From positions 1 through 23,895 of IMG/VR virus record IMGVR_UViG_3300030104_005549: a DNA stretch of 23,895 bases. The stretch is one strand, 5' to 3'. Position numbers and translations under genes: made by a program. Shown one piece after another: positions 1 to 23,895 of this stretch (the first letter of the stretch is position 1; each line of letters starts with the position of its first letter). Source of the stretch: a virus. The notes under the pieces are model-generated. The model worked only from the letters and a program-made list of their open reading frames with translations, did no database searches and was not told the DNA's origin.

Positions 1-579
1 GGAGGATCGGGCGGATCTGGAGGACCAGGTGGATACTCAGGAAGTAAAGGATTTAAGGGATTTGGTGGTACTGCTGCACCTGGTCGTGGTTGGAACTACA
101 AAACTGGTAACATAAAAGGAACACCTGGTACACCTGGCACACCTGGTACGCCTGGTGGTGGAGGAGGTCCTGGCACACCTGGTACACCTGGTGGAAGTGG
201 ACAACCTGGTTCATCTGGTACACCTGGTGGAGGTGGTTCATCGGGAACACCTGGCACACCTGGCACACCTGGTGGTTCAGCAAGTTGTAGTGCAGCATCA
301 CCTGGTACGCCTGGTACGCCTGGTAGTGGTGGAACAGGTGGTAGTTCAGGAACACCAGGTTCAGATGGTCAACCTGGCGGTAGTGGATCACCTGGTCAAC
401 CTGGCACACCTGGAAACGCAGGTACACCTGGCACACCTGGCACACCTGGTCAACCTGGTGGCGATGGTGGAGACTGGGGGCAAGCAGGTGGATCACAAGG
501 TGGTGCTGCAGGTCGTGCAGTTAAGGGCAGTAAATATCAAGTAATACAAAACAACGGAGACATCAGAATCATTTTCTAA
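1..579 (+). CDS. Collagen-like Gly-X-Y structural protein, C-terminal part (probable tail fibre or virion surface protein)
   Basis: The reading frame is open from base 1 to TAA at 577-579, giving 192 residues with the N-terminus outside the window. The visible part is Gly-rich (GGSGGSGG at the edge), then a long run of Gly-X-Y triplets dominated by Gly-Thr-Pro and Gly-Gln-Pro (about residues 40-156). It ends in a short non-repetitive tail with KGSKYQVIQNNGDIRIIF. Collagen-like triplets in phage proteins usually form trimeric fibre shafts, so a virion fibre is the likely role; that is inference. A Cys occurs once, within the repeats. The next gene, 8 bases downstream, is a prolyl-hydroxylase-type enzyme whose natural substrate class is Pro in such repeats. 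The collagen-like nature is certain from sequence; the structural role is probable. Confidence 0.85.
   Translation, partial: GGSGGSGGPGGYSGSKGFKGFGGTAAPGRGWNYKTGNIKGTPGTPGTPGTPGGGGGPGTPGTPGGSGQPGSSGTPGGGGSSGTPGTPGTPGGSASCSAASPGTPGTPGSGGTGGSSGTPGSDGQPGGSGSPGQPGTPGNAGTPGTPGTPGQPGGDGGDWGQAGGSQGGAAGRAVKGSKYQVIQNNGDIRIIF
118..468 (+). repeat. Tandem nonameric GGT-ACA-CCT-type coding repeats (Gly-Thr-Pro)
   Basis: Degenerate 9-base units reading ACACCTGGT/ACGCCTGGC recur throughout. The longest uninterrupted stretches are near 118-150, 244-270 and 418-450. Synonymous changes (ACA/ACG, GGT/GGC/GGA) show the array is old enough to have diverged but is held to the Gly-X-Y reading. The repeat is also open in other frames and on the other strand, which creates false long ORFs there. 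Confidence 0.85.
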
Positions 580-587
580 ATTTCGTC

Positions 588-1187
588 ATGTCAATTTATT
601 CTTTGAGTCCGTCCCCTAATTTTCAGGGTGAGACACCCTATCAAATATGGGAAGATGGATTCACCTCAAACGAGTGTGATAGTATTATTAAGTATGGTGA
701 ATCTCTTTCACCAAAACCTGCTACAGTTGGTAACAATAGTGATACCAATGTAGTTGATAGTATTCGTACATCTAAAACTGCATGGATAGACTGTAACAAC
801 GATACAAGATGGTTGTATGAGCGTCTAGGTAATATATTAAGAGTAACTAATGGTATGTTTTGGAAGTTTGATATCCGTGGATTTCATGAGCACATCCAAT
901 TCACAGTATATGAGGGAGACGATAAAGGATTTTATAGATGGCATGTAGATAATAATATGCAGTCGGATGTACCACCAAGAAAATTGAGTATGACAGTTCA
1001 GTTAAGTGACCCTAGTGAGTATACTGGTGGTGAACTACAACTGCATGATGGTGAAGTACAAACTGCAGTAAATAATAGAGGGCATGTTGTAATATTTCCA
1101 AGTTATGTGTTACACAGGGTTCAACCTGTTACTTCTGGCATTCGTAGAAGTTTAGTAGTCTGGGCAAATGGTCCTGGATTCAAGTGA
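588..1187 (+). CDS. 2-oxoglutarate/Fe(II)-dependent dioxygenase, prolyl-4-hydroxylase type
   Basis: This 199-residue protein carries the non-haem iron facial triad of the 2OG-Fe(II) oxygenase superfamily: H119-V-D121 in FYRWHVDNN, and distal H176 in PSYVLHRV. R186/R187 in GIRRSLVVW lie at the 2-oxoglutarate-binding position. The GGEL stretch (147-150) and the strand before the distal His are typical of PKHD/P4H-type hydroxylases. Such enzymes use O2 and 2-oxoglutarate to hydroxylate prolyl residues, releasing succinate and CO2; the substrate here is not shown by sequence. The gene begins 8 bases after the collagen-like gene, so the fibre prolines are an attractive substrate. The length matches the single-domain phage enzymes of this family. 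The family call is strong; the substrate is inference. Confidence 0.88.
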   Translation: MSIYSLSPSPNFQGETPYQIWEDGFTSNECDSIIKYGESLSPKPATVGNNSDTNVVDSIRTSKTAWIDCNNDTRWLYERLGNILRVTNGMFWKFDIRGFHEHIQFTVYEGDDKGFYRWHVDNNMQSDVPPRKLSMTVQLSDPSEYTGGELQLHDGEVQTAVNNRGHVVIFPSYVLHRVQPVTSGIRRSLVVWANGPGFK

Positions 1188-1201: not shown

Positions 1202-1244
1202 AGTGTCCACTCAACCCCCACAACGAGGTAAAATCGTGTATAAT
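1202..1244 (+). promoter_or_regulatory. Promoter: palindromic box AGTGTCCACT plus TATAAT, no -35
   Basis: AGTGTCCACT lies at 1202-1211 and TATAAT at 1239-1244, separated by 27 bases. No sigma70 -35 hexamer is recognisable at the right place (CCCCCA-like sequence there). The 14-mer AATCGTGTATAATA (1232-1245) recurs exactly at the 6339 promoter. The predicted start point is near 1251, the A of the ATG of the next gene, so the transcript may be leaderless. Confidence 0.6.
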
Positions 1245-1250
1245 ATAGGT

Positions 1251-2414
1251 ATGAAGAATACCCATCTAGAACACTTAGAAGACGAAATCCTCAATACTGG
1301 CACTGCTGGTGGATTCAATGTCGTTTCTGTACTCAGATCATTTGGTAACATGCTTACAGGCAATAAGTCTGATCTAAGTGTTACTACTAAGTGGGATGGT
1401 GCTCCTGCGATTATTTGTGGTACAGATCCTGTTACTGGCAGATTCTTTGTTGGTACTAAATCAGTATTCAACAAGATTACACCTAAAATATGTTATGATG
1501 ATGTTGATGTTGATCGTTTCTATCAAGCAGAGATATTGCGTTCAAAGTTAAAAGATTGTCTTAAGTATCTTCCTCAATTAAATATCAAAGGTATTGTTCA
1601 AGGAGATTTATTATTCTCATCAGGAGATAAAAAATATGCTAGTATCGGTGGACATAGAGTTATTACATTCAATCCCAATGCGATTACTTATGCAGTATCA
1701 TGTAAGTCAAATCAAGGTATATCAGTAGAGAAAGCAAATATCGGTATCGTATTTCACACAGTTTATGAAGGTAGCACTATACAAGATTGCAAGGCAGTAT
1801 ACAAAGCACCATTATTTGTAGGAACTGAAGATATATTCATTCCCAATGCTAATTTCAAGGATGCTCAAGGTATTAGTCGTTTTGATAATACTCAGAAGAT
1901 CAAGTATATTGCTACTATCAATCGTGCAGAGGGTTCACTTAAGAGAGCATCAAGATTCCTTGATATTATGCACACTCATGGACAGTCTAGATTCTTAATG
2001 CCTATACTATTCAAACAGTTCTTCAATACACAGATTCGTACTGGTAAAACTATTGTAAACACTAGAAGGACAGTTGCACAGTTTGCTAAGTTTTATTCTG
2101 ACAAGTTAGATGCAGAGATCAATACTAAAACAAGTGCTAAAGGTAAAGCAAGATACAAACAAATGAAGTTAGAAGGTCTCAACTTTATCTCTAGATATCA
2201 GAATGAGATATACTTTACATTTGCATCATACATTTCTATTCGTGATGCTAAGAGAATGGTTATTGCTCAGTTAAATAAGGTTGGACAGATAAGAACATAT
2301 ATAGGAAACACACCAACAACTCCAGAAGGATATGTTGTTTCTACTAACAACTATGCTCTAAAGTTTGTTGATGATGATTTTAGAAAAGCAAACATTCTCT
2401 TTGGAATACAATGA
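1251..2414 (+). CDS. Nucleotidyltransferase/polynucleotide-ligase-fold protein (KxDG motif)
   Basis: The protein has 387 residues from ATG 1251. It carries a set that resembles the covalent nucleotidyltransferase motifs of DNA/RNA ligases: K47-W-D-G (motif I, the lysine that would take AMP), GRFFVGTKS (63-71, motif III-like), GIVQGDLLF (114-122, motif IV-like) and EGYVV with a later ALKFV (359-373, motif V-like). An alpha-helical insert of roughly 150 residues separates motifs IV and V. I recall a conserved cyanophage family with this N-terminus (THLEH, then a KxDGAPA motif), usually annotated as hypothetical. ATG 1251 is preferred because GTG 1203 lies inside the promoter box and the THLEH start fits the family; GTG 1236 behind GAGG is an alternative. 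It overlaps the halogenase gene by ATGA. Ligase or capping-like chemistry is inferred, not shown. Confidence 0.6.
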   Translation: MKNTHLEHLEDEILNTGTAGGFNVVSVLRSFGNMLTGNKSDLSVTTKWDGAPAIICGTDPVTGRFFVGTKSVFNKITPKICYDDVDVDRFYQAEILRSKLKDCLKYLPQLNIKGIVQGDLLFSSGDKKYASIGGHRVITFNPNAITYAVSCKSNQGISVEKANIGIVFHTVYEGSTIQDCKAVYKAPLFVGTEDIFIPNANFKDAQGISRFDNTQKIKYIATINRAEGSLKRASRFLDIMHTHGQSRFLMPILFKQFFNTQIRTGKTIVNTRRTVAQFAKFYSDKLDAEINTKTSAKGKARYKQMKLEGLNFISRYQNEIYFTFASYISIRDAKRMVIAQLNKVGQIRTYIGNTPTTPEGYVVSTNNYALKFVDDDFRKANILFGIQ

Positions 2415-3718
2415 AAAAAATTGCTGTTATCGGTGCAGGTGTTATTGGTATCAATTCTATTCTTCAATTAATAGAAGATAGAACCAAGGCAGATTTAGAG
2501 AATGAATATAAAATAGTGTGGATATATGATACATCAACAGATATATTTGGTATTGGAGAGTCAACAACTCCATCATTATCAGGACAGATTGCTAGTCCAC
2601 CATCATATTTAAGATATGATTCTAAAGATTATTTTGATGCCACTATCAAGCATGGAAATAGATTTGTAGGATGGGGTAAGAATGGTGGAGACTTTACTAG
2701 GTATTTTCCTATGAGCACTGCTGCTATTCATTTTGATACCAGATTATTCAGTAGTTTCTTTATTGAGCATTTAACTAACGAGAGTTCATATAATTTTGAA
2801 GCAAGAGATACTAAGATAAAATCTATATCTTTCGATGAAGATCCTATAGGTGGACATTGCTTTGGTGTTCTAATTGATGGGGAGGCATTTGATTTTGTAT
2901 TAGATTGTAGTGGTGGTAAATCATTGGTGAATGATGATTATTACTTTGATTCACCCTTTGAAACATGTAATACAGTTCTTGCTACTAGACTACCAGAACC
3001 TGCAGACTGGGGTTATACATTGACACAGACCACTCGAAATGGTTGGATGTTTGGAATTCCATTACAAAGCAGGAGAACATATGGTTATGCTTATAATTCA
3101 AGTTTGACCACTGAAGAGGAAGCACAGCAAGAGTTCAGAAGTTTAGTAAAACAAGATGGACATCAATATAATAAGTTTACATGGAGACCTAGATTCTCTA
3201 ATTATGTTCTACATCATAGTGGTAGATATGCTCGTAATGGTAATGCGTTGGGATTTCTAGATCCACTTGAAGCATTGGCAGGTATGTATTATGATAGTGT
3301 AACAGATAAGATGGCAGACTATGCTCTCGGCGATACATATAATAACATAGATCTTATTAATAATATCAACAGTTGGTATTATCAGGAGGTTGTTGGAGAC
3401 TGGTTACTAAATGCTGCGTGGATGTATCATTTTGGTTCAGAACATAAAACTCCATTCTGGACACAAGTTCAGAAAAATGCTAGAGATATATTAAATAATA
3501 AGGAGATTAATCCTTGTCGTTTAATAAGTGATGAGCAAACATTTACTGATGACTTGTTTAATATTATAGGGGATGACCCAGAAATGAAAAAGTTATTTGT
3601 TAATGATTTACTTGATGTCGAGTTTACTTTCGATTTTTGTCGTGACTATTATAATTTCAGTTCATTTACTAAAGGAATGAGTGCAGATTATGCAAACAAG
3701 TTTCCTACATTTACATAA
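2411..3718 (+). CDS. Flavin-dependent halogenase (tryptophan-halogenase family, VirX1-like)
   Basis: This 435-residue protein has the features of FADH2-dependent halogenases. It has an N-terminal Rossmann signature GAGVIG (8-13) and a GESTTP loop (49-54) matching the family's GE[ST]T.P. K80 sits in DATIKHGNRFVGW at the place of the catalytic lysine that forms the halogenating species. GWMFGIP (211-217) is the WxWxIP diagnostic with the second Trp replaced by Phe. LDPLE (283-287) supplies the conserved acidic residue. These enzymes oxidise halide to HOX at FAD and steer it to a substrate. VirX1 of cyanophage Syn10 is a characterised phage relative. No flavin reductase gene is visible here, so host reductase is presumably used. 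It overlaps the upstream gene by 4 bases and is followed after 3 bases by a paralogue. Confidence 0.85.
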   Translation: MKKIAVIGAGVIGINSILQLIEDRTKADLENEYKIVWIYDTSTDIFGIGESTTPSLSGQIASPPSYLRYDSKDYFDATIKHGNRFVGWGKNGGDFTRYFPMSTAAIHFDTRLFSSFFIEHLTNESSYNFEARDTKIKSISFDEDPIGGHCFGVLIDGEAFDFVLDCSGGKSLVNDDYYFDSPFETCNTVLATRLPEPADWGYTLTQTTRNGWMFGIPLQSRRTYGYAYNSSLTTEEEAQQEFRSLVKQDGHQYNKFTWRPRFSNYVLHHSGRYARNGNALGFLDPLEALAGMYYDSVTDKMADYALGDTYNNIDLINNINSWYYQEVVGDWLLNAAWMYHFGSEHKTPFWTQVQKNARDILNNKEINPCRLISDEQTFTDDLFNIIGDDPEMKKLFVNDLLDVEFTFDFCRDYYNFSSFTKGMSADYANKFPTFT

Positions 3719-3721
3719 CTT

Positions 3722-5107
3722 ATGACTAGAAAAATTGCTATTATTGGTGGTATTGATGCTGTACAAGTATTATTGAATTGTGTATCACATAGAGATACTA
3801 TCGATGGAGTGTATCAAGATGATGAGATAGTTTGGATTCGTGATTGTTCTCATGTTATTGATGATTATGGTATACAAACTGAGTCCGAGTGGGGAGAAAT
3901 AGTTGGAGAGAATACTACGCTAAGTTCAATACATCTATCAAGATTGTTAGATGGTAAACAAAAGTGGGGTAAAAAGTTTATTGGATTTGGTAATGTCACA
4001 GCATATAATTTCTATGTGTTGTATGAACCAACTCATGTAGGTTGGCATCTAAATGGTAGAAAATTTGTAGATTTATTCTGGAATAATTATACTAATACTG
4101 CTAGAAATGTAAGAATGATCGATGCTCATGTAGATAATATTGATGTGCAGGAAGATTATGTTAAAATACTTGATGATAAATATGATTTTGTAATTGATTG
4201 CACTAGAGGTGCAATATGGGATCACAATTCTTATAGTGAAGCATTATATAATCCAACAAATGCATCTCTAACTATTCACAAGAAAGTAGAGGGTAAATGG
4301 AATTATACTGCACATATTGCATGTAAACATGGATATCTAACAGGCATGCCAACTAAGGATGCTCAAACATGGATATATTCATATGATAAGGACTTAACAA
4401 CACTTGATGATGCTATTAAAGATTTTAATGAGCATTGTGAGATAAGTGTGGGAGAGTTGCCAAAGATAAATGAATATGATAAAATGTTATCAGATTATTG
4501 TATTCACTCTAATAACAGATATGCTAGATGTGGTCGTGCATTGGGGTTTAATGATGAATTAAACAACTTTAAAAACTATCTTGAAGGAGATTTAGCAGAA
4601 GCAATTGCAGAGTATTTGTTTTTAGATCCTGAGAGACAACAAACAGAGTATCAAAGATTAGATGTAGTGGACAGATATGAAGATGGCAAAAAAGATTGTG
4701 CATCATCGCTCGGTTTCTATCTACAAGAAGGTTCTAAATATAAGACTGAGTTCTGGGAACAAACTAGAACAAATGCTTGTTTATGTTTAGAGAACAGAGA
4801 ATACTTTGACATATCTACAAATCTCATCCAACATGAATATCTTAAAATGAATGAACTTATTCCATTACATGAGAATATTCGTTTAGATTATTTTAGGAGA
4901 CTAGCAGAGGATGAACAGCGTTTGAGACAAAAACAAACACATAATTCTGACGAACCTTATAGATTATTAGGGAGTTATCAGATATTTACTGAGACTACTA
5001 GAGGTCTCGGTTCACCTTATGCTCACCTATTTCCATTGATGACAGAATTGATCCCACCAACATCCGAAGCATTCGGAGAAATTAACCTTGATCCAATACT
5101 ATGGTAG
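3722..5107 (+). CDS. Degenerate flavin-halogenase paralogue, probably non-catalytic partner
   Basis: At 461 residues it aligns colinearly with the upstream halogenase at recognisable anchors. MTRKIAIIGG matches MKKIAVIGAG; DGKQKWGKKFIGFG matches DATIKHGNRFVGWG (K81 aligns with catalytic K80); FVIDCTRG matches FVLDCSGG; NNRYARCGRALGF matches SGRYARNGNALGF. Key residues have decayed: the GxGxxG loop reads GGIDAV, the GESTTP loop is unrecognisable, the WxWxIP site reads GYLTGMP, and LDPLE has become NDELN, losing the conserved Glu. It is slightly longer than its neighbour. It is intact and uninterrupted, so it is not a pseudogene. A structural or substrate-binding partner of the active enzyme is the simplest idea, but that is inference. 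Confidence 0.7.
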   Translation: MTRKIAIIGGIDAVQVLLNCVSHRDTIDGVYQDDEIVWIRDCSHVIDDYGIQTESEWGEIVGENTTLSSIHLSRLLDGKQKWGKKFIGFGNVTAYNFYVLYEPTHVGWHLNGRKFVDLFWNNYTNTARNVRMIDAHVDNIDVQEDYVKILDDKYDFVIDCTRGAIWDHNSYSEALYNPTNASLTIHKKVEGKWNYTAHIACKHGYLTGMPTKDAQTWIYSYDKDLTTLDDAIKDFNEHCEISVGELPKINEYDKMLSDYCIHSNNRYARCGRALGFNDELNNFKNYLEGDLAEAIAEYLFLDPERQQTEYQRLDVVDRYEDGKKDCASSLGFYLQEGSKYKTEFWEQTRTNACLCLENREYFDISTNLIQHEYLKMNELIPLHENIRLDYFRRLAEDEQRLRQKQTHNSDEPYRLLGSYQIFTETTRGLGSPYAHLFPLMTELIPPTSEAFGEINLDPILW

Positions 5108-5151
5108 AAACTTTAATTAAGGACTTTCCCCTTACAGACATAGGAGGTCAA

Positions 5152-5481
5152 ATGTCAGAAGAAAGAATAAAAAAAGTGGCATATACTAAGCAAGAAGTTG
5201 ATGCTATGATCGAGGAGGCAGTTGCAGTTGCAGTTGCTGAAGCAAAAAAGATCGATGAAGAGTCTATGCGTAAACATAATCGTGATGCTACGGTTATAAG
5301 TATGATATTAGGGTTTACTGCACTATCATTATTTGTTGATGGTCTGTTAAGATTGTTAGGTATCATCCCACCTTTCATGCATATTGACATAGATGTACTT
5401 GACAAGATTGTAGAGAGAGTGGAAGTTGATGTAATAGACAAACTAAAACAAGTTCCCATCCAAAAAATACTTAGAAGATGA
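5152..5481 (+). CDS. Small membrane protein with N-terminal coiled coil
   Basis: I place the start at ATG 5152 because a near-perfect Shine-Dalgarno AGGAGGT lies at 5142-5148; ATG 5101, which overlaps the upstream stop, is the longer alternative. The 109 residues begin with a charged helical segment rich in Ala, Val and Glu (EEAVAVAVAEAKK). One hydrophobic span of about 20 residues follows (ISMILGFTALSLFVDGLLRLLG), then an amphipathic acidic/basic tail. The alternating GCAGTT codons form a short DNA repeat at 5218-5235. I do not recognise the family. It heads a run of small, mostly membrane-bound, translationally coupled proteins. Confidence 0.7.
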   Translation: MSEERIKKVAYTKQEVDAMIEEAVAVAVAEAKKIDEESMRKHNRDATVISMILGFTALSLFVDGLLRLLGIIPPFMHIDIDVLDKIVERVEVDVIDKLKQVPIQKILRR

Positions 5482-6996: not shown

Positions 6997-7211
6997 AGTA
7001 CAATTCCCCATATGAAATCGGAGTCGGCGATGTTGTCATTATGACTGATGAAGATGGTTACAAAACAGACCATTTAGTTCTTATTAACTACATCAAAGGA
7101 GAGACCGATGCAAAAGGTTACACACCAGAGACCAGTCGTACTATTTTAATTGACAATGAAGGTAAGAGAACTTTAGTTACTAACTATCGTACAATGGAGG
7201 TTGTATCATGA
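6993..7211 (+). CDS. Small beta-rich hypothetical protein (72 aa)
   Basis: It starts within the upstream stop and ends within the next start (ATGA at 7208). Residues alternate in a beta pattern (YEIGVGDVVIMTDEDGYKTD, later TRTILIDNEGKRTLVTNYRTM), suggesting a small barrel such as an SH3-like fold. The GDVV segment is typical of such barrels. No specific family is recognised. Confidence 0.65.
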   Translation: MKYNSPYEIGVGDVVIMTDEDGYKTDHLVLINYIKGETDAKGYTPETSRTILIDNEGKRTLVTNYRTMEVVS

Positions 7212-7912
7212 ATGCAGTAATATCAGGAACAAAAGCAAAGCAAGATGGGCACAAGTATGAAGCAGAATGTGTTCATCTTTTAAATGAACGATTTGGTGGA
7301 GACCATAAAACCGATGGCAGACCACAGACTAAGGTAGATGTATATGACAATGAAGGAACTAACAAATATTCAGTAAAGAATGTATCTAAAAATCATACTC
7401 AAGTAGCATTACTATCAAGTAAGAAGTTTATAGATTATTTTGGTCTTAGTGATAGTTATTGCGAATATTTTATTAACATGTTCTTTGGATATGCAAATAA
7501 AGAACTAGTATCTATTGTTAAGGATGTACACCCACACATTAATCTTAGTGATGCTGAGATAAGACAAAATAGAGTTTATAGAGATAATATACCAAATCCT
7601 ATTATTAATAGTTTTATATCATTCATGAATTCATATAAGATGGAGATATTTGATATTATTGTAAAACGAGGATTTAGTGGGGATAGTATTAATCATATAG
7701 TATGGAGAAATAAGATAACAAATAATGTTGATATTATAGATGTTGATTCTCTAGTATCACTAATAGAAAATGGAACATGGAAAATAAACAATACTACACT
7801 AGAGTTCAGAACTAGTGATAACTTTAAACTATTTCATTTACAAATGAAAGGAAGCGGTAAGAAATATAATAGTGGTTATCATGGTATGATGTTTCATATG
7901 TATTGGAAGTAA
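7208..7912 (+). CDS. Putative PD-(D/E)XK-type nuclease
   Basis: This 234-residue protein has an N-terminal segment that fits a restriction-endonuclease-like core. A helix carries GHKYEAECVHLL (14-25, E18 as the helix acid) and LNERFGG follows. TKVDVYD supplies D44, and KYSVKN supplies S55-V-K57 as an [S]xK variant of the (D/E)XK half. A second conserved-looking patch, FHLQMKGSGKKYNSG, lies near the C-terminus. Such folds cut DNA with a divalent metal. The gene is followed by an SF2 helicase with only regulatory sequence between, so a nuclease-helicase pairing is possible. No methyltransferase is nearby. The family call rests on the motif order only and is moderate. It could instead be a repair or host-DNA-degradation nuclease. 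Confidence 0.45.
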   Translation: MNAVISGTKAKQDGHKYEAECVHLLNERFGGDHKTDGRPQTKVDVYDNEGTNKYSVKNVSKNHTQVALLSSKKFIDYFGLSDSYCEYFINMFFGYANKELVSIVKDVHPHINLSDAEIRQNRVYRDNIPNPIINSFISFMNSYKMEIFDIIVKRGFSGDSINHIVWRNKITNNVDIIDVDSLVSLIENGTWKINNTTLEFRTSDNFKLFHLQMKGSGKKYNSGYHGMMFHMYWK

Positions 7913-17167: not shown

Positions 17168-19087
17168 ATGCCATTTACTAAGTTTACCAACTTAAATTTC
17201 GCCGAAATTAAGGAATCTATCAAAGATTACCTGAGAGCTAACTCTGATTTCAAGGATTTTGACTTTGAAGGGTCAAATATGTCGATCATTGTCGATATAT
17301 TGGCATACAATTCGTATATAACTGCCTTTAATAGTAATATGGTTGCTAATGAGTCCTTCTTGGATTCAGCAACACTACGAGAAAATGTCGTTTCTTTAGC
17401 TAGAAACATAGGATATGTACCAAGATCACGAAAATCTGCCGAAGCAGTCGTTGATTTTGATTTTAAATTTGCTGGAAATAGTAATACTGTCACTTTAAAG
17501 AAAGGTTTAGCACTAGTTGGTGCTGTAAGTAACACAAATTTTACTTTTTCTGTCCCAGAAGATGTAACAGTAAACAGTCCTTTGGATTCTGGAGGCATAA
17601 GTGGTAATAATTCTCCAAGAACTGCTAAATTTTCTGGATTAACTGTCTTCCAAGGCACACTTCTAACTAAAAAATTTACTGTAAATGGTAGTTCTGACCA
17701 AAGATTCATTCTTGACAACTCATTTATCGATTTAGACTCACTTAGAGTGACTATAAAGAAGTCTGGATCGTCTGCAGGACTATCATTTTCAAGAATTGAC
17801 AATATTATTGATGTTACTTCCGTCTCAAATGTGTATTTAATACAAGAAATTAAGAATGAGACCTATGAATTACTGTTTGGAGATGGTTTATTTGGTAAAA
17901 AACTAGAAATTGGTGATGAAATTGATATCTCTTACATTATAACTGACGGTAAAGATGGAAACGAAGGTAAATTCTTTACTTTTTCTGGAAATATAGTAGA
18001 TGATGCAGGAAATTCACTTTCATCTACAAATACTGTTACAGTAACCGCCGTTCAAACTGCTAGAAACGGTACTGATATCGAAGCAATTGACTCTATACGA
18101 TATTTTGCACCTAGAATGTACTCCGCACAGAACAGGGCGGTTACACCGAGGGATTATGAAGCAATAGTTCAGTCTGTTTACCCAAATACTGAGTCTGTTT
18201 CTGTTGTTGGTGGTGAAGAATTAGATCCTCCTGAGTTTGGAACTGTAGTTTTAAGCATAAAACCTAAAAACGGTACATTTTTATCTGACTTTACCAAACA
18301 AAACATACTAACTAACCTAAAACAGTATTCAATTGCAGGAATTAACCAACGAATTGAAGATTTAAAGATTTTGTATGTAGAATTGGACTCTTTTGTATAT
18401 TATAACAATAGTATAATGGATGATAGAGACCAACTTAAGGCAGAAGTTACTACATCTCTCACTGAGTATGGAAAATCTACTAATTTGAATGCATTTGGTG
18501 GTAGATTTAAGTATTCTGAGTCTCAACGAATTATTGATCAGACCGATCCAGCAATTACTTCCAATATTACAAAGGTTACTATTCGCAGAGACCTAAAAGC
18601 ACTCATAAATCAGTTTGCTCAGTATGAATTATGTTTTGGTAATCAGTTTAATGTAAAACCTGGCGGTGGAACTATTAAATCTACTGGATTTGGTGTTAAT
18701 GGTGTTGAAGGTGAGGTATACTTTACTGATATACCAAGAGCTGATGGTTTGATGGGTGATATCGCTGTATTTAAACCTCCTACTTCCGCAACTGAGGAAG
18801 CAGTCGTAGTTATTAACTCTGCTGGTACTGTAGATTATGTTAAAGGTGAAGTTATACTTAATACTATCAACATTTCATCAACAGTTAAGGAAAATAACAT
18901 TATTGAGATACAGGCATTCCCAGAATCCAATGATGTTATAGGATTGAAGGACATTTATCTAAGTTTAGACATGTCAAATACTACGATAAATATCATAAGA
19001 GACACAATATCATCTGGTCAGCAAATTTCTGGCATAGGATATAAAGTCACCTCTAGTTACTCTAACGGATCGCTAATCAGACAGTAG
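17168..19087 (+). CDS. 6: Baseplate wedge subunit gp6
   Basis: The 639-residue length is close to T4 gp6. The conserved N-terminus is visible (FTNLNFAEIKESIKDYLRAN, then DFDFEGSNMSIIVDILAYNS, and ESFLDSATLRENVVSLARNI with GYVPRS). The middle has the baseplate-J-like module: RYFAPRMYSAQNRAVTPRDY, then EAIVQSVYPNTESV and VVGGEELDPPEFGTV. gp6 dimers form the iris ring that ties wedges together. The start ATG 17168 lies 6 bases after gp25, and gp7-position ORF follows after 1 base. Confidence 0.93.
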   Translation: MPFTKFTNLNFAEIKESIKDYLRANSDFKDFDFEGSNMSIIVDILAYNSYITAFNSNMVANESFLDSATLRENVVSLARNIGYVPRSRKSAEAVVDFDFKFAGNSNTVTLKKGLALVGAVSNTNFTFSVPEDVTVNSPLDSGGISGNNSPRTAKFSGLTVFQGTLLTKKFTVNGSSDQRFILDNSFIDLDSLRVTIKKSGSSAGLSFSRIDNIIDVTSVSNVYLIQEIKNETYELLFGDGLFGKKLEIGDEIDISYIITDGKDGNEGKFFTFSGNIVDDAGNSLSSTNTVTVTAVQTARNGTDIEAIDSIRYFAPRMYSAQNRAVTPRDYEAIVQSVYPNTESVSVVGGEELDPPEFGTVVLSIKPKNGTFLSDFTKQNILTNLKQYSIAGINQRIEDLKILYVELDSFVYYNNSIMDDRDQLKAEVTTSLTEYGKSTNLNAFGGRFKYSESQRIIDQTDPAITSNITKVTIRRDLKALINQFAQYELCFGNQFNVKPGGGTIKSTGFGVNGVEGEVYFTDIPRADGLMGDIAVFKPPTSATEEAVVVINSAGTVDYVKGEVILNTINISSTVKENNIIEIQAFPESNDVIGLKDIYLSLDMSNTTINIIRDTISSGQQISGIGYKVTSSYSNGSLIRQ

Positions 19088-19088
19088 A

Positions 19089-22000
19089 ATGATCGAAACA
19101 TATTCTCCCTTAAGTCCTAGGGTAAAAACTTATCAGGTCGTTAGCGAAACTATACCAGAATTTGCTAAATCAGAGAATCCTCTGTTCTCTAAATTTTTAG
19201 AACAGTATTATATCTCTCAAGACTTCCAAGGTGGACCTGCAGATATTGCGGAGAATATTGATGCGTATATTAAAGTCGATAATTTAACTACTGATGTAAT
19301 AAGAGGTACAACTACTCTTGTTGGCACTATATCATCAACAGATACTACAGTTACAGTAGATAGTACTGATGGATATCCTCAAAAATACGGTCTTTTTAAA
19401 GTTGATAATGAAATTTGCAGTTACACTGGTATAACTACAAATAGTTTTACTGGTTGTTTCCGTGGTTTTAGCGGAATCACTACATTTTCCAAACAAAATG
19501 ACCCTGATCAGTTAATATGGGAAAAAACTGTTGCTGAGTCTCATAATACTGGTGCAAATATAATAAATCTTAGTTCTTTATTCTTAAAAGAATTTTATAG
19601 GAACTTAAAAGCAATGTATGCTCCTGGTTTAGAAGGAGTAACGCTTTCACCTCAATTAGATGTCAATAATTTCATAAAAGAAGCAAGAAGTTTATATGAA
19701 GCAAAGGGAACTCGTGCATCTTTCAAAATTCTCTTCAAAGCACTCTTTGGAGTTGATCCAAAAATCAATGATTTAGAAAAATATCTTATAAAACCATCTT
19801 TTGCAAATTATTTGCGTAGAAAGACGGTTTCTGTCGAATTAATATCTGGTAATCCTCAGGAATTAGTTGGTCAAACACTTTTTCAAGATAATGACCCACT
19901 AAACCCTCAATTAAACGATGCATCAGGTCCTATTTCTGAAGTATCACTAATTAGAGACAATTTTTTCAAACTTTCTCTCTTTACAGGTTTTGATGAACGA
20001 GGTTTGACTGATGGTACCTTTGTAGTACCTGGCAGAAGTCAAAATATTGGAAAAATCGGTATTGGTGCGTCTGTTATTACTGTAGATTCTACAATTGGTT
20101 TTTCTAGCACTGGTACAATCAAAGTTGGTGAGATAGGCACATCATTTTATCAAACATTTACATATGACTCAAAAAGTATTAACCAATTCTTCGATATTGA
20201 TCCTCCAGTCAATATAGAGATACCAAATAACAGTACAGTATCTACTTTCAATATTGTTTATGGATATGAGGGTGGAGATATTAGTAAAAAGGTCGAAATG
20301 CGTTTAAGTGGCGTACTTTCTAACTTTGTTACTAGCAGACCTCTCCGAAATCTAAAATCTACCTCAGATATCAAGGTAAAAAACCTAGGAAGATTTATTG
20401 CTAACCCACCTATCAATAAATCCTATGAAGAGGTGTTTTTTAACAGTTGGATTTACAATACATCCACTAGATACGAAATTGATACTTTTGCAGGGTCTAT
20501 ATTTACACTTGTTGGTAATATTGAAAGAAGTAGTTTAAAAGTTGGTGATAAAATTGAAATTTTGCGTAGAAACAGTGAAGTTCTTGTTGCAGGAGATTTA
20601 ACTGTTGCTAGTGTTGATGTAACTTCATCATCTATTAGTATTGATGGCACTATCCCTACTCTTGACACTTCATTATTGTTTGATATCCGAAGATTACAAA
20701 ATAAAGTTAAATCTACCATTGTTCCAGTAAAAGGTGGACAAGATCAGTTACTAACAGATATTAATAACACATATATCGTAGATGAGTCTAGATCAGAGTC
20801 AGAAAAGCGAGAAGCATTTGTTGCTTCTAGTTCTCTGCCTAGTTACACTATAGAATCTGATAGAATTCATGCGGAGTTGATAAATCCTTCTATTGCTGGC
20901 GGAAACTGGGAAGGATTTGATAGTATAGAAGGCAGATACAGTATTATCTCGTTTGCAACAGATGTTCCATTTGAAACTGGAGATGAAATCATATATGTGC
21001 CAGAACCAGGTTCTCAGGTTATTGGTGGGTTAGATTCGCCAAGTTATTTCGTAGAAGTTCTAAGTGCAAAGAATAAAATAAGATTATATCCATCTCGTTC
21101 CTTTATTAAGGCAAATTTACCATCATTCTTTGTTGTACCTACTTTACCTACAAGCAAACATGATTTTATACTTGCCAGTCAAGGAAAACGAAATATATTC
21201 CCTGCAAGACCTGTAAAACGATATATTTTAGAGCAACAACTCAAAAGTGGTAAAGAAGGTCAAACTACCTCTGAAATTACAGTAGATGGTAATACCGCAA
21301 TGCTTGTAAACGGTATTGAGGTATTAAATTATAAAGGTGAGGATACACTCTTCTCTGGTCCTGTTAAAACTTTAAATGTTTTGAATAGTGGTGCAGGTTA
21401 TGATGTTCAAGCACCTCCAAACATTACTATTACCGATGAGACAGTAAGTGTCGCAAATACTGCAGGTGCAGTTCCAGTTTTAAGCGGAGTTGTAGAAAAT
21501 ATTCTTATTGACCCATTTGACTATGACCTTGATAAGGTTATAAGTGTAGAAATATATGGTGGTAATGGTAACGGTGCGATTGGTAGAGCGTTAGTTGAAG
21601 AAAGATTTAGACAGGTATTCTTTAATGGTATTAGCACTAATCTTGGCGGTGATGTTAGTTCAGTTGATAATTCATTCAATCTTGACAAAAATCACAACTT
21701 TTTAACTGGAGATAGAATTGTATATGATAATAACGGTGGTAACAACATTGGTGTTGCTACAACAGGAGGAGTTGCGGATACTTTAACATTATTTGGCGGT
21801 CAGGACTATTTTATCAATGTTATTAACTCAAAAAACTTTACTCTTCATAATAACAAGCAAGATTCGATTGCAGGAATTAATACAATACTAATTTCCGAAG
21901 ATGCTGCTATAACCAACGCAGGTCTTCATATTTTCCGTACTTTTGATAAAAAACGAACTATTAGTAGAATTAGTTTAGAAGATTCTGGTTCAGGTTACGC

Positions 22001-23895
22001 AAATAGAAATATTTTAGTAAAACCAGTCGGAATTAATACTTTTAATGATTGCGTTGAGTTTATCGATCACGGACTTACAGATGGAGAGACAATTGAATAC
22101 GAGAATGGTGTAAACGCTGTCATAACAGGTCTCAGTACAACAAAACAGTATAAAGTACTAAAGATAGATAAAGATAAGTTTAGACTCGCTGAAGCAGGTA
22201 ATAAGGGCGATAGAGAGGCAGAAGAAATAAATTACGATAATCGTCAACATGTATTCATAGATTCTGTTGGTGCTGGTTCTGGATATCATCTTTTCAAATA
22301 TCCACCAATTGTATGTAAAGTCAAAGTATTAACTAAAGATCAGCAAGAAAAAGAACCTGTAGCAACTCCAGTTGTTAAAGGACAGGTTGATGAGATCTTA
22401 GTTTACAACAGAGGTGCAAACTACGGATCTACAATTTTAAATTTTCCTAATCCACCTATTGTTAATATTCCAACAGGAACTTTAGGTCAAATTGGTATCA
22501 TTGTTGCGAATGGCACTGTTACTGATGCGTTTGTTGCAAATGGAGGAAGTGGTTATGTAGGACCTCCTAATCTTAATGTTATTAGTGCTGCACCACTTGC
22601 TCAAGGTGCAACATTAAGAGCTGTTGTAAATGACAGTGGTTCAATTACGGATGTTAAAGTTATATCTGGTGGTATTGGATATGCAGCAACTAATACAAGT
22701 GTTAATGTTGTACCTGTCGGTTCTGAGTTTAAGGCAGAAGCGACTGTAAGGGGTTTGACTGTTAATAAGTCATATCGCTTAGATCAGTCTGAAATGGACT
22801 ACCTACAACCTATTGGAGACGGTCTAGCAGTTAATGTTGTTGGATACGGTAACTCTATTAGGAATTTCTTCGATGATGATGGAACAGGACACTCTCCTAT
22901 CATTGGTTGGGCATATGATGGAAATCCAATATACGGTCCTTATGGATTAGTCGATACTGATGATATTCAATCTGATGTTGAGAAGATGCAGTCTAGTTAT
23001 GAGATATCAGCAACTAATATTGAAAATAGACCTCCTTCATCATTATTTCCTTTTGGATATTTCATAGAGGATTATGTTTACACTGGAAAAGGAAATTTAG
23101 ATGAACATAACGGAAGATTTACTAAGACTCCCGATTTTCCTCAAGGAGTCTATGCGTATTTTGCTACAGTAGATTTTTTAAATACTCCGCAGTTCCCATT
23201 TTTCATCGGTGACACATATAGATCTTTTGCTGTTGAAGAAAATACTGTAAAGGGTAAATTACTAGATCAAGTTACTTTTGACTTCAATAATTCAGAACTT
23301 GTAAGAAATACACAACCATATAACTTGTTTGGAGATGGTGTTAGTTATGATTACCTATTCCAACCATATAGAACTAACAACCAAGTTTCAAATCCAAGTA
23401 ATCTTCTAGAAGGTTCTATAGAAAACATCAATGTTATAAGTAAAGGTTCTGGTTACAGTATTGGTGAAAAAGTAGTTTTTGATAATACAGGAACTAATGG
23501 TGTTGGTGCAGATGCGGAAATTAAAAAACTTATAGGAAAACCAATTGATAATATTAGTAGTTCTGTAACTACATTACCAGATCTTCCTATTAAACATACC
23601 AGACAGGGAGTTGTTTTTAGAGTAACTCCGTATCATGAGTTTAAAGGATCTGATACTGTTAGAGTAACTGGTATATCAACTTATATTAAAAACTTAGAAG
23701 GATTTAAAAAGATTGCAGTTGCAGGTTATGCTGCATCTCTAACAGATGATGGTTACACTGGTATTATTACAGACCTAAGAGTTAATTTTGTTCCTGATAA
23801 TGTTGCAGCAGGTGATTCTATTGGTATTGGTACAGAAACTGCTCGTATTCTTAGTTTCTTCCCCAATGAAAAAATTGTTAGAATAGAAAGATACG
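19089..23895 (+). CDS. Giant baseplate protein in gp7 position, with YHYH domain; open at window end
   Basis: ATG 19089, one base after the gp6 stop; I translated the frame through to the last base and met no stop, so at least 1,602 residues with the C-terminus outside. The N-terminus (SPRVKTYQVVSETIPEFAKS, KFLEQYYISQDFQGGPADIA) and the LYEAKGTRASFKILFKALFG helix look like the wedge-protein start seen in T4-like cyanophages. The body is beta-rich, with recurrent [SN].G.GY turns (about residues 766, 966, 1108, 1151, 1194, 1452). Residues about 1262-1358 form a YHYH domain: HSPIIGWAYDGNPIYGPYG, then LDEHNGRFTKTPDFPQGVYA. T4 gp7 is 1,032 residues, so this is far longer. Baseplate role is inferred from position; gp7 identity is uncertain. 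Confidence 0.75.
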   Translation, partial: MIETYSPLSPRVKTYQVVSETIPEFAKSENPLFSKFLEQYYISQDFQGGPADIAENIDAYIKVDNLTTDVIRGTTTLVGTISSTDTTVTVDSTDGYPQKYGLFKVDNEICSYTGITTNSFTGCFRGFSGITTFSKQNDPDQLIWEKTVAESHNTGANIINLSSLFLKEFYRNLKAMYAPGLEGVTLSPQLDVNNFIKEARSLYEAKGTRASFKILFKALFGVDPKINDLEKYLIKPSFANYLRRKTVSVELISGNPQELVGQTLFQDNDPLNPQLNDASGPISEVSLIRDNFFKLSLFTGFDERGLTDGTFVVPGRSQNIGKIGIGASVITVDSTIGFSSTGTIKVGEIGTSFYQTFTYDSKSINQFFDIDPPVNIEIPNNSTVSTFNIVYGYEGGDISKKVEMRLSGVLSNFVTSRPLRNLKSTSDIKVKNLGRFIANPPINKSYEEVFFNSWIYNTSTRYEIDTFAGSIFTLVGNIERSSLKVGDKIEILRRNSEVLVAGDLTVASVDVTSSSISIDGTIPTLDTSLLFDIRRLQNKVKSTIVPVKGGQDQLLTDINNTYIVDESRSESEKREAFVASSSLPSYTIESDRIHAELINPSIAGGNWEGFDSIEGRYSIISFATDVPFETGDEIIYVPEPGSQVIGGLDSPSYFVEVLSAKNKIRLYPSRSFIKANLPSFFVVPTLPTSKHDFILASQGKRNIFPARPVKRYILEQQLKSGKEGQTTSEITVDGNTAMLVNGIEVLNYKGEDTLFSGPVKTLNVLNSGAGYDVQAPPNITITDETVSVANTAGAVPVLSGVVENILIDPFDYDLDKVISVEIYGGNGNGAIGRALVEERFRQVFFNGISTNLGGDVSSVDNSFNLDKNHNFLTGDRIVYDNNGGNNIGVATTGGVADTLTLFGGQDYFINVINSKNFTLHNNKQDSIAGINTILISEDAAITNAGLHIFRTFDKKRTISRISLEDSGSGYANRNILVKPVGINTFNDCVEFIDHGLTDGETIEYENGVNAVITGLSTTKQYKVLKIDKDKFRLAEAGNKGDREAEEINYDNRQHVFIDSVGAGSGYHLFKYPPIVCKVKVLTKDQQEKEPVATPVVKGQVDEILVYNRGANYGSTILNFPNPPIVNIPTGTLGQIGIIVANGTVTDAFVANGGSGYVGPPNLNVISAAPLAQGATLRAVVNDSGSITDVKVISGGIGYAATNTSVNVVPVGSEFKAEATVRGLTVNKSYRLDQSEMDYLQPIGDGLAVNVVGYGNSIRNFFDDDGTGHSPIIGWAYDGNPIYGPYGLVDTDDIQSDVEKMQSSYEISATNIENRPPSSLFPFGYFIEDYVYTGKGNLDEHNGRFTKTPDFPQGVYAYFATVDFLNTPQFPFFIGDTYRSFAVEENTVKGKLLDQVTFDFNNSELVRNTQPYNLFGDGVSYDYLFQPYRTNNQVSNPSNLLEGSIENINVISKGSGYSIGEKVVFDNTGTNGVGADAEIKKLIGKPIDNISSSVTTLPDLPIKHTRQGVVFRVTPYHEFKGSDTVRVTGISTYIKNLEGFKKIAVAGYAASLTDDGYTGIITDLRVNFVPDNVAAGDSIGIGTETARILSFFPNEKIVRIERY

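Follow-up and report, generated by a model that had tools for sequence, protein, structure and literature searches.

Why would a virus keep, directly behind a halogenase gene with an intact active site, a full-length second copy from which catalytic residues have disappeared? This question is raised by a stretch of 23,895 nucleotides (hereafter, the window; positions 1 to 23,895 of the IMG/VR virus record IMGVR_UViG_3300030104_005549), in which two adjacent genes, P1 and P2, encode an intact and a degenerate protein of the flavin-dependent halogenase fold, respectively. P2 belongs to an ancient clade, here called D, from a group of marine cyanophages. The clade is under purifying selection and is linked to genes for a collagen-like adhesin and a 2-oxoglutarate (2OG)-Fe(II) oxygenase, and P2 may have a non-catalytic part in a cassette for modifying the tail fibre.

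An intact and a degenerate halogenase in tandem

2411-3718, plus strand: P1, compact flavin-dependent halogenase, 435 aa (PF04820 profile match, motif table, AlphaFold2 model)
P1 motif positions: GAGVIG 2432-2449; GESTTP 2555-2572; K80 2648-2650; WMFGIP 3044-3061; E287 3269-3271
3722-5107, plus strand: P2, degenerate halogenase-fold protein of clade D, 461 aa (25% identity to P1, motif table, AlphaFold2 model, substitution rates)
P2 motif positions: GGIDAV 3746-3763; GIQTES 3869-3886; K81 3962-3964; YLTGMP 4334-4351; N281 4562-4564

Both reading frames start with ATG and contain no internal stops, and a 3-base spacer separates them. P1 matched the Pfam family Trp_halogenase (PF04820) with an E-value of 1.5e-23 (83.8 bits against a curated cut-off of 21). 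Its motif set was complete in the motif table, comprising GAGVIG (residues 8-13), GESTTP (49-54), K80, and LDPLE (E287), and its version of WxWxIP was WMFGIP (212-217), with Phe for the second Trp as in most compact phage members. By profile and motifs, P1 is a flavin-dependent halogenase with predicted activity. Its sequence matches among PDB halogenases were LooH, VirX1, BrvH, and RebH, and its AlphaFold2 model (predicted local distance difference test, pLDDT, 89.7; predicted template modelling score, pTM, 0.89) was closest to AbeH at a Z-score of 37.4.

P2 showed no halogenase match in Pfam and no significant match to PDB sequences, and matched PHROG 2928 (tryptophan halogenase) weakly (E-value 2e-11). 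It aligned with P1 over the full length (25% identity, 459 columns, E-value 2e-35), far beyond chance, which indicates that the two proteins are of common ancestry. The GxGxxG glycine (GGIDAV, 9-14), the flavin loop (GIQTES, 50-55), and the catalytic Glu (NDELN, N281) were lost, and the W motif read YLTGMP (205-210), without Trp or Phe, while the catalytic Lys was retained as K81. The AlphaFold2 model of P2 (pLDDT 85.9, pTM 0.87) nevertheless had the complete halogenase fold, with Z-scores of 34.6 to AbeH (2.6 Å over 377 residues), 33.8 to BrvH, 32.1 to PrnA, and 25.8 to VirX1. A first-pass annotation, made from the letters of the window, had described an intact and a full-length degenerate halogenase 3 bases apart, the first keeping the flavin loop, K80, a WxWxIP-like motif, and LDPLE, and the second keeping the lysine without the glycine, the GESTTP loop, or the acidic residue; frames, alignment, models, and the motif table bore out this description.

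Both genes were present on nine further IMG/VR contigs at 79-94% identity. The ratio of nonsynonymous to synonymous substitution rates (dN/dS), measured from the window copy over these contigs, was 0.13-0.20 for P2 and 0.09-0.13 for P1, and all frames were open. Among the D pairs measured, which included D genes without a neighbouring halogenase, it was 0.08-0.26. Although these pairwise Nei-Gojobori estimates are approximate, they lie far below 1, and together with the open frames they indicate that P2 is kept by selection, as had been proposed. Two of the longer pair-bearing contigs carried psbA and are therefore cyanophages. A T4-type late-promoter motif was looked for upstream of the pair and was absent. 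Read-through of the P1 stop codon into P2 was also considered; the two genes share one frame in the window and in most of the contigs, but a 23-base spacer in one contig (L017) breaks the frame, so read-through is not conserved.

Several known systems resemble parts of this arrangement. PrnA, RebH, and AbeH share the fold (Z-scores of 30-37 for P1 and 26-35 for P2) and, with P1, the GxGxxG, GES, Lys, and Glu motifs, but they are approximately 70-100 residues longer and act on free tryptophan, and no degenerate partner of them was reported in the literature searched. The fold of P1 and P2 is also that of VirX1 from cyanophage Syn10 (PDB 6qgm), a trimeric iodinating halogenase with GxGxxG, WxWxIP, and K79 (PMC8407142). 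Compact 'tryptophan halogenases' of the cyanophages S-MS29, S-SSM5, S-SCSM1, and P-TIM40 are similar to P1 in length (approximately 360-390 aa), in a WxFG[IL]P-type motif, and in sequence (26-29% identity), but they are single genes with an intact flavin loop and Lys and no D companion. In phage syn9, where two prnA genes were already noted in 2010 (PMC2984593), the adjacent halogenase genes gp41 and gp42 lie beside tail-fibre and 2OG-oxygenase genes; however, both have intact motifs and are of the long type (507 and 530 aa), whereas P1 and P2 belong to a compact clade and P2 is degenerate.

Membership and origin of the D clade

We use D for halogenase-fold proteins that lack both the PLE glutamate and the flavin loop. 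Relatives were found by alignment-based scans, and among the 107 representatives (80% identity) in the motif table, the D clade was the sole set in which the PLE/PLQ region was missing along with the GEST-type loop. A D gene was present on 45 contigs counted by name, divided into the subclades D_A (the window type; 10, window included), D_B (19), D_C (8), and D_C2 (8); because near-copies occur among them, they represent fewer independent lineages, and several of the 20 D rows in the tree were likewise near-copies. All were uncultivated contigs, mostly fragments. In isolated phages no D was found, the matches being distant intact halogenases only, and the 27 pattern matches in bacterial and archaeal genomes included no relatives.

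Every full-length D was an open frame without the flavin loop or the PLE glutamate, and no relative of P2 was found with intact catalytic residues or as a broken fragment, either of which would have told against the first-pass annotation. Lengths were 464-475 aa in D_B and 452-478 aa in D_C and D_C2. The catalytic Lys was retained in D_A, D_B, and D_B2 and was gone in D_C and D_C2, and the dinucleotide motif was changed in every subclade (GGIDAV, GAGADA, and GATPAG). The D clades had invariant motifs of their own, which in D_A and D_B were TG[IM]P, QTW-Y, and GRALG-ND.

Phylogenetic analysis recovered D as one clade (support 100/99), the P1-type halogenases as another (100/99), and the two together as a group (100/97), outside which the intact single halogenases L070, L190, and L195 fell. 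Approximately unbiased (AU) tests rejected the grouping of P1 with D_A/B (p = 0.003) and with D_C/C2 (p = 0.001). D monophyly and these tests favour, as the simplest account, a single origin of the degenerate state shortly after one duplication. Separate decay of the two D subclades was rejected by the same tests, with the caveat that both subclades lie on long branches, flagged by the program. The deep split within D, with 26% identity, shows that it is an ancient clade. A recent decay of P1 is ruled out by the open frames, the low dN/dS, and the tree.

Halogenase partners and gene order

The arrangements of D ARRANGEMENTS were of four types:

Window type (D_A): DUF6267, P1, D
D_C type: D followed by a P1-type halogenase, with a 1-base gap or overlap
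D_C2 type: D followed, with a 10-base gene overlap, by a conventional halogenase of the long kind (499-518 aa) whose motifs are intact
D_B type: D alone

All 10 window-type contigs carried the intact and degenerate pair, and degenerate-plus-intact tandems recurred in two more lineages, with a P1-type partner on eight contigs and a long halogenase on seven; the first-pass annotation had suggested seeking the pair in other cyanophages. One long partner matched PF04820 at 279 bits, and the long partner grouped as sister with the phage S-SRM01 halogenase. The junctions between D and halogenase were a 10-base overlap, TAATG, a 14-base overlap, and a 1-base gap, and genes abutting or overlapping in this way are likely to be translationally coupled.

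Between D_A and D_C loci, identities were approximately 26-29% for D, 47-53% for the P1 partners, and 56-60% for DUF6267. One hypothesis, which would account for the inverted order of the genes as well as for the excess divergence of D, is that D_A/B and D_C are older paralogues derived from an ancestral order D_C, P1, D_A/B with differing losses. No contig with all three genes was seen.

A conserved adhesin locus around D

Besides the pair, the window contains the following genes of the locus:

1-579, plus strand: C-terminal portion of a fibre/adhesin gene with collagen-like GTPGTPG repeats, truncated where the window begins (from translation)
588-1187, plus strand: 2OG-Fe(II) oxygenase of the prolyl-hydroxylase-like fold family (PF13640, E-value 4.5e-16)
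1203-2414, plus strand: DUF6267 protein, overlapping the P1 start by 4 bases (PF19782, E-value 2.5e-109)
5101-5481, plus strand: small phrog_7360 protein, with a 7-base overlap with the end of P2; specific to window-type contigs at this position
7208-7912, plus strand: phrog_25220 protein, which bounds the syntenic locus on the right in almost all relatives

The adhesin, the oxygenase, and DUF6267 are constant partners that the first-pass annotation had missed. Whatever the halogenase partner, the order was collagen-like fibre gene, 2OG-Fe(II) oxygenase, DUF6267, D, phrog_25220 protein, and helicase, and the P1/P2 locus sits among tail-fibre and baseplate genes. Full-length orthologues of the window adhesin in relatives were 546-658 aa long.

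As a search independent of D, the non-repetitive N-terminus of the adhesin alone was used as the query, and 38 contigs were matched. Exactly one D (cut in one case) was present in the stretch examined for 36 of them; in the other two, the stretch was too short to reach D on a contig that does carry it (L340; D at L165) or ended within DUF6267 (L352). Every adhesin locus readable far enough thus combined the collagen-like adhesin, the 2OG-Fe(II) oxygenase, DUF6267, and exactly one D, and by partner these loci comprised 14 with a P1-type halogenase, 7 with a long halogenase, and 14 with none. No D was found in approximately 70 DUF6267 loci without this adhesin. The constant member of the cassette is the dead halogenase and not the live one.

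Outside its repeats, the adhesin is homologous to the 'gp37-gp38 adhesin tip complex' of S-SRM01, which adjoins the S-SRM01 halogenase. D_C and D_C2 loci often held a second or third 2OG oxygenase (three in L349, for example). The succession of a GTPGTPG adhesin (window 1-579; L008 132-1838) and downstream 2OG-Fe(II) oxygenases suggests hydroxylation of the phage fibre. The adhesins of long-partner loci contained slightly more Trp, and aromatic residues, tried as a marker of halogenase presence, were not discriminating.

A proposed role for the dead copy

Taken together, the stripped but selected fold, the constant adhesin and 2OG oxygenase, and the probably coupled tandems with two kinds of halogenase in many phages are best read as signs of a non-catalytic cassette component. 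P2 would be a pseudoenzyme in which the flavin and halide sites of the flavin-dependent halogenase fold have been replaced, retained for the modification or maturation of the collagen-like tail-fibre adhesin by a cassette of adhesin, 2OG-Fe(II) oxygenase, DUF6267, D protein, and, optionally, an active halogenase. Within such a cassette, D might bind and present the fibre (or another large substrate) or scaffold the modifying enzymes, and at loci with an adjacent active halogenase the two could form a heteromer, the halogenase then acting on the fibre. Halogenases commonly oligomerise, which together with the VirX1 trimer is offered as the basis for such a heteromer. We consider the chances to be about even that a pseudoenzyme has been fixed in this role, acting together with an active halogenase in phages that encode one. 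A stronger version makes D the dedicated, non-catalytic subunit that directs a viral machine to a collagen-like receptor-binding fibre; the machine would hydroxylate this fibre and, in phages with a halogenase gene, also halogenate it, and different active halogenases would dock on the same dead scaffold. This version is speculative and rather unlikely to hold in full.

Several observations weigh against a non-catalytic role in fibre modification. D occurs without an adjacent halogenase at the same locus on 19 contigs and so may act alone, gene linkage in phages can reflect a shared timing of transcription rather than joint function, the aromatic content of the adhesin does not clearly track halogenase presence, and D partly retains Rossmann elements and, in D_A/B, the Lys, so that flavin binding or other chemistry is possible. 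In a doubtful alternative, D is a neofunctionalised flavo- or nucleotide-dependent enzyme that gave up halogen chemistry for another reaction, such as peptidyl hydroxylation. The full fold, the invariant motifs, the Lys of D_A, D_B, and D_B2, and the presence of the peptidyl-Trp dihydroxylase QhpG and the peptide halogenase MibH among the structural matches of P2 are consistent with this, whereas the changed dinucleotide motif in every subclade, the missing isoalloxazine loop, and the few candidate catalytic residues common to the two subclades (D_C/C2 being without Lys) argue otherwise. That P2 is a pseudogene or assembly artefact, as the missing catalytic residues might suggest, is refuted by the confident fold, by dN/dS values far under 1, and by the uninterrupted frames of 45 contigs drawn from many samples.

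The first-pass annotation had proposed a heteromeric partner or substrate-presenting subunit. The recurrent, probably coupled intact/degenerate tandems of three lineages favour this, including the case in which P1 is replaced beside D by a long halogenase; the 19 contigs without an adjacent active halogenase show that the partnership of D with its neighbour is not obligate. A strict form, with P2 as a regulatory or substrate-binding subunit specific to P1 and lone D proteins pairing with a halogenase encoded elsewhere, is somewhat improbable. A near-complete 180-kb contig with a lone D does carry an intact halogenase 63 kb away, leaving room for a distant partner, but contigs of up to 112 kb show none, and the divergence of D and its partner is not tightly matched (93% identity for D and 77% for the partner between L155 and L173). 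Because lone D genes exist, a heteromer cannot be the whole story, although it is compatible with the loci where a halogenase is adjacent. The constant adhesin linkage and the position among tail-fibre and baseplate genes would also suit exaptation of D as a fibre-assembly chaperone or fibre-bound virion protein unlinked to modification chemistry; this is quite unlikely given that the 2OG oxygenase linkage is equally constant and that pairing with active halogenases is repeated.

A non-catalytic cassette component would fit a general principle, that of pseudoenzymes retained beside an active paralogue, with the difference that D, though inactive, persists even at loci lacking an adjacent active paralogue. 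No pseudo-halogenase was named in the literature searched, an absence that is not proof of novelty, and as far as that literature shows, D would be the first conserved pseudo-halogenase family. For phage halogenases, the roles in infection suggested so far involve host metabolites or antibiotics (PMC2984593, PMC10452541), and the titles and abstracts searched contained no link to fibre modification. The tie of D to the adhesin and 2OG oxygenase in every readable locus points instead to the virion fibre as the modified target, and such modification, if real, would be testable by mass spectrometry. The series of partners (P1-type, long, and none) offers a natural set for asking what the dead copy contributes.

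Other halogenase loci

A glycine-rich open reading frame (ORF) lay near 20 of 109 phage halogenase loci without D (e.g., L075, L221, L235, L236, and L239) and near 1 of 67 DUF6267 controls, which were unmatched for phage type; this excess suggests that halogenases may be linked to fibres generally. The otherwise intact phage halogenases L032, L031, L037, L070, L079, and L190 had a Gln at the position of the catalytic Glu (PIQ/PLQ), possibly another loss or change of function. Further tandem halogenase pairs were found in L071 (298-1887 and 1871-3373), L034 (1002-2525 and 2515-4107), L115 (3998-5188 and 5185-6396), and L108; in these pairs, both genes appear to be intact or are altered in different ways, and the second copy of L071 reads GESGGF. 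In G031, the contig of L167, an intact compact halogenase directly adjoins photosystem reaction-centre genes (18659-22156). At the far end of the window, after the baseplate wedge genes, an ORF of at least 1602 aa (19089-23894) runs off the sequence, and S-SCSM1 has a 12-kb gene at the same place.

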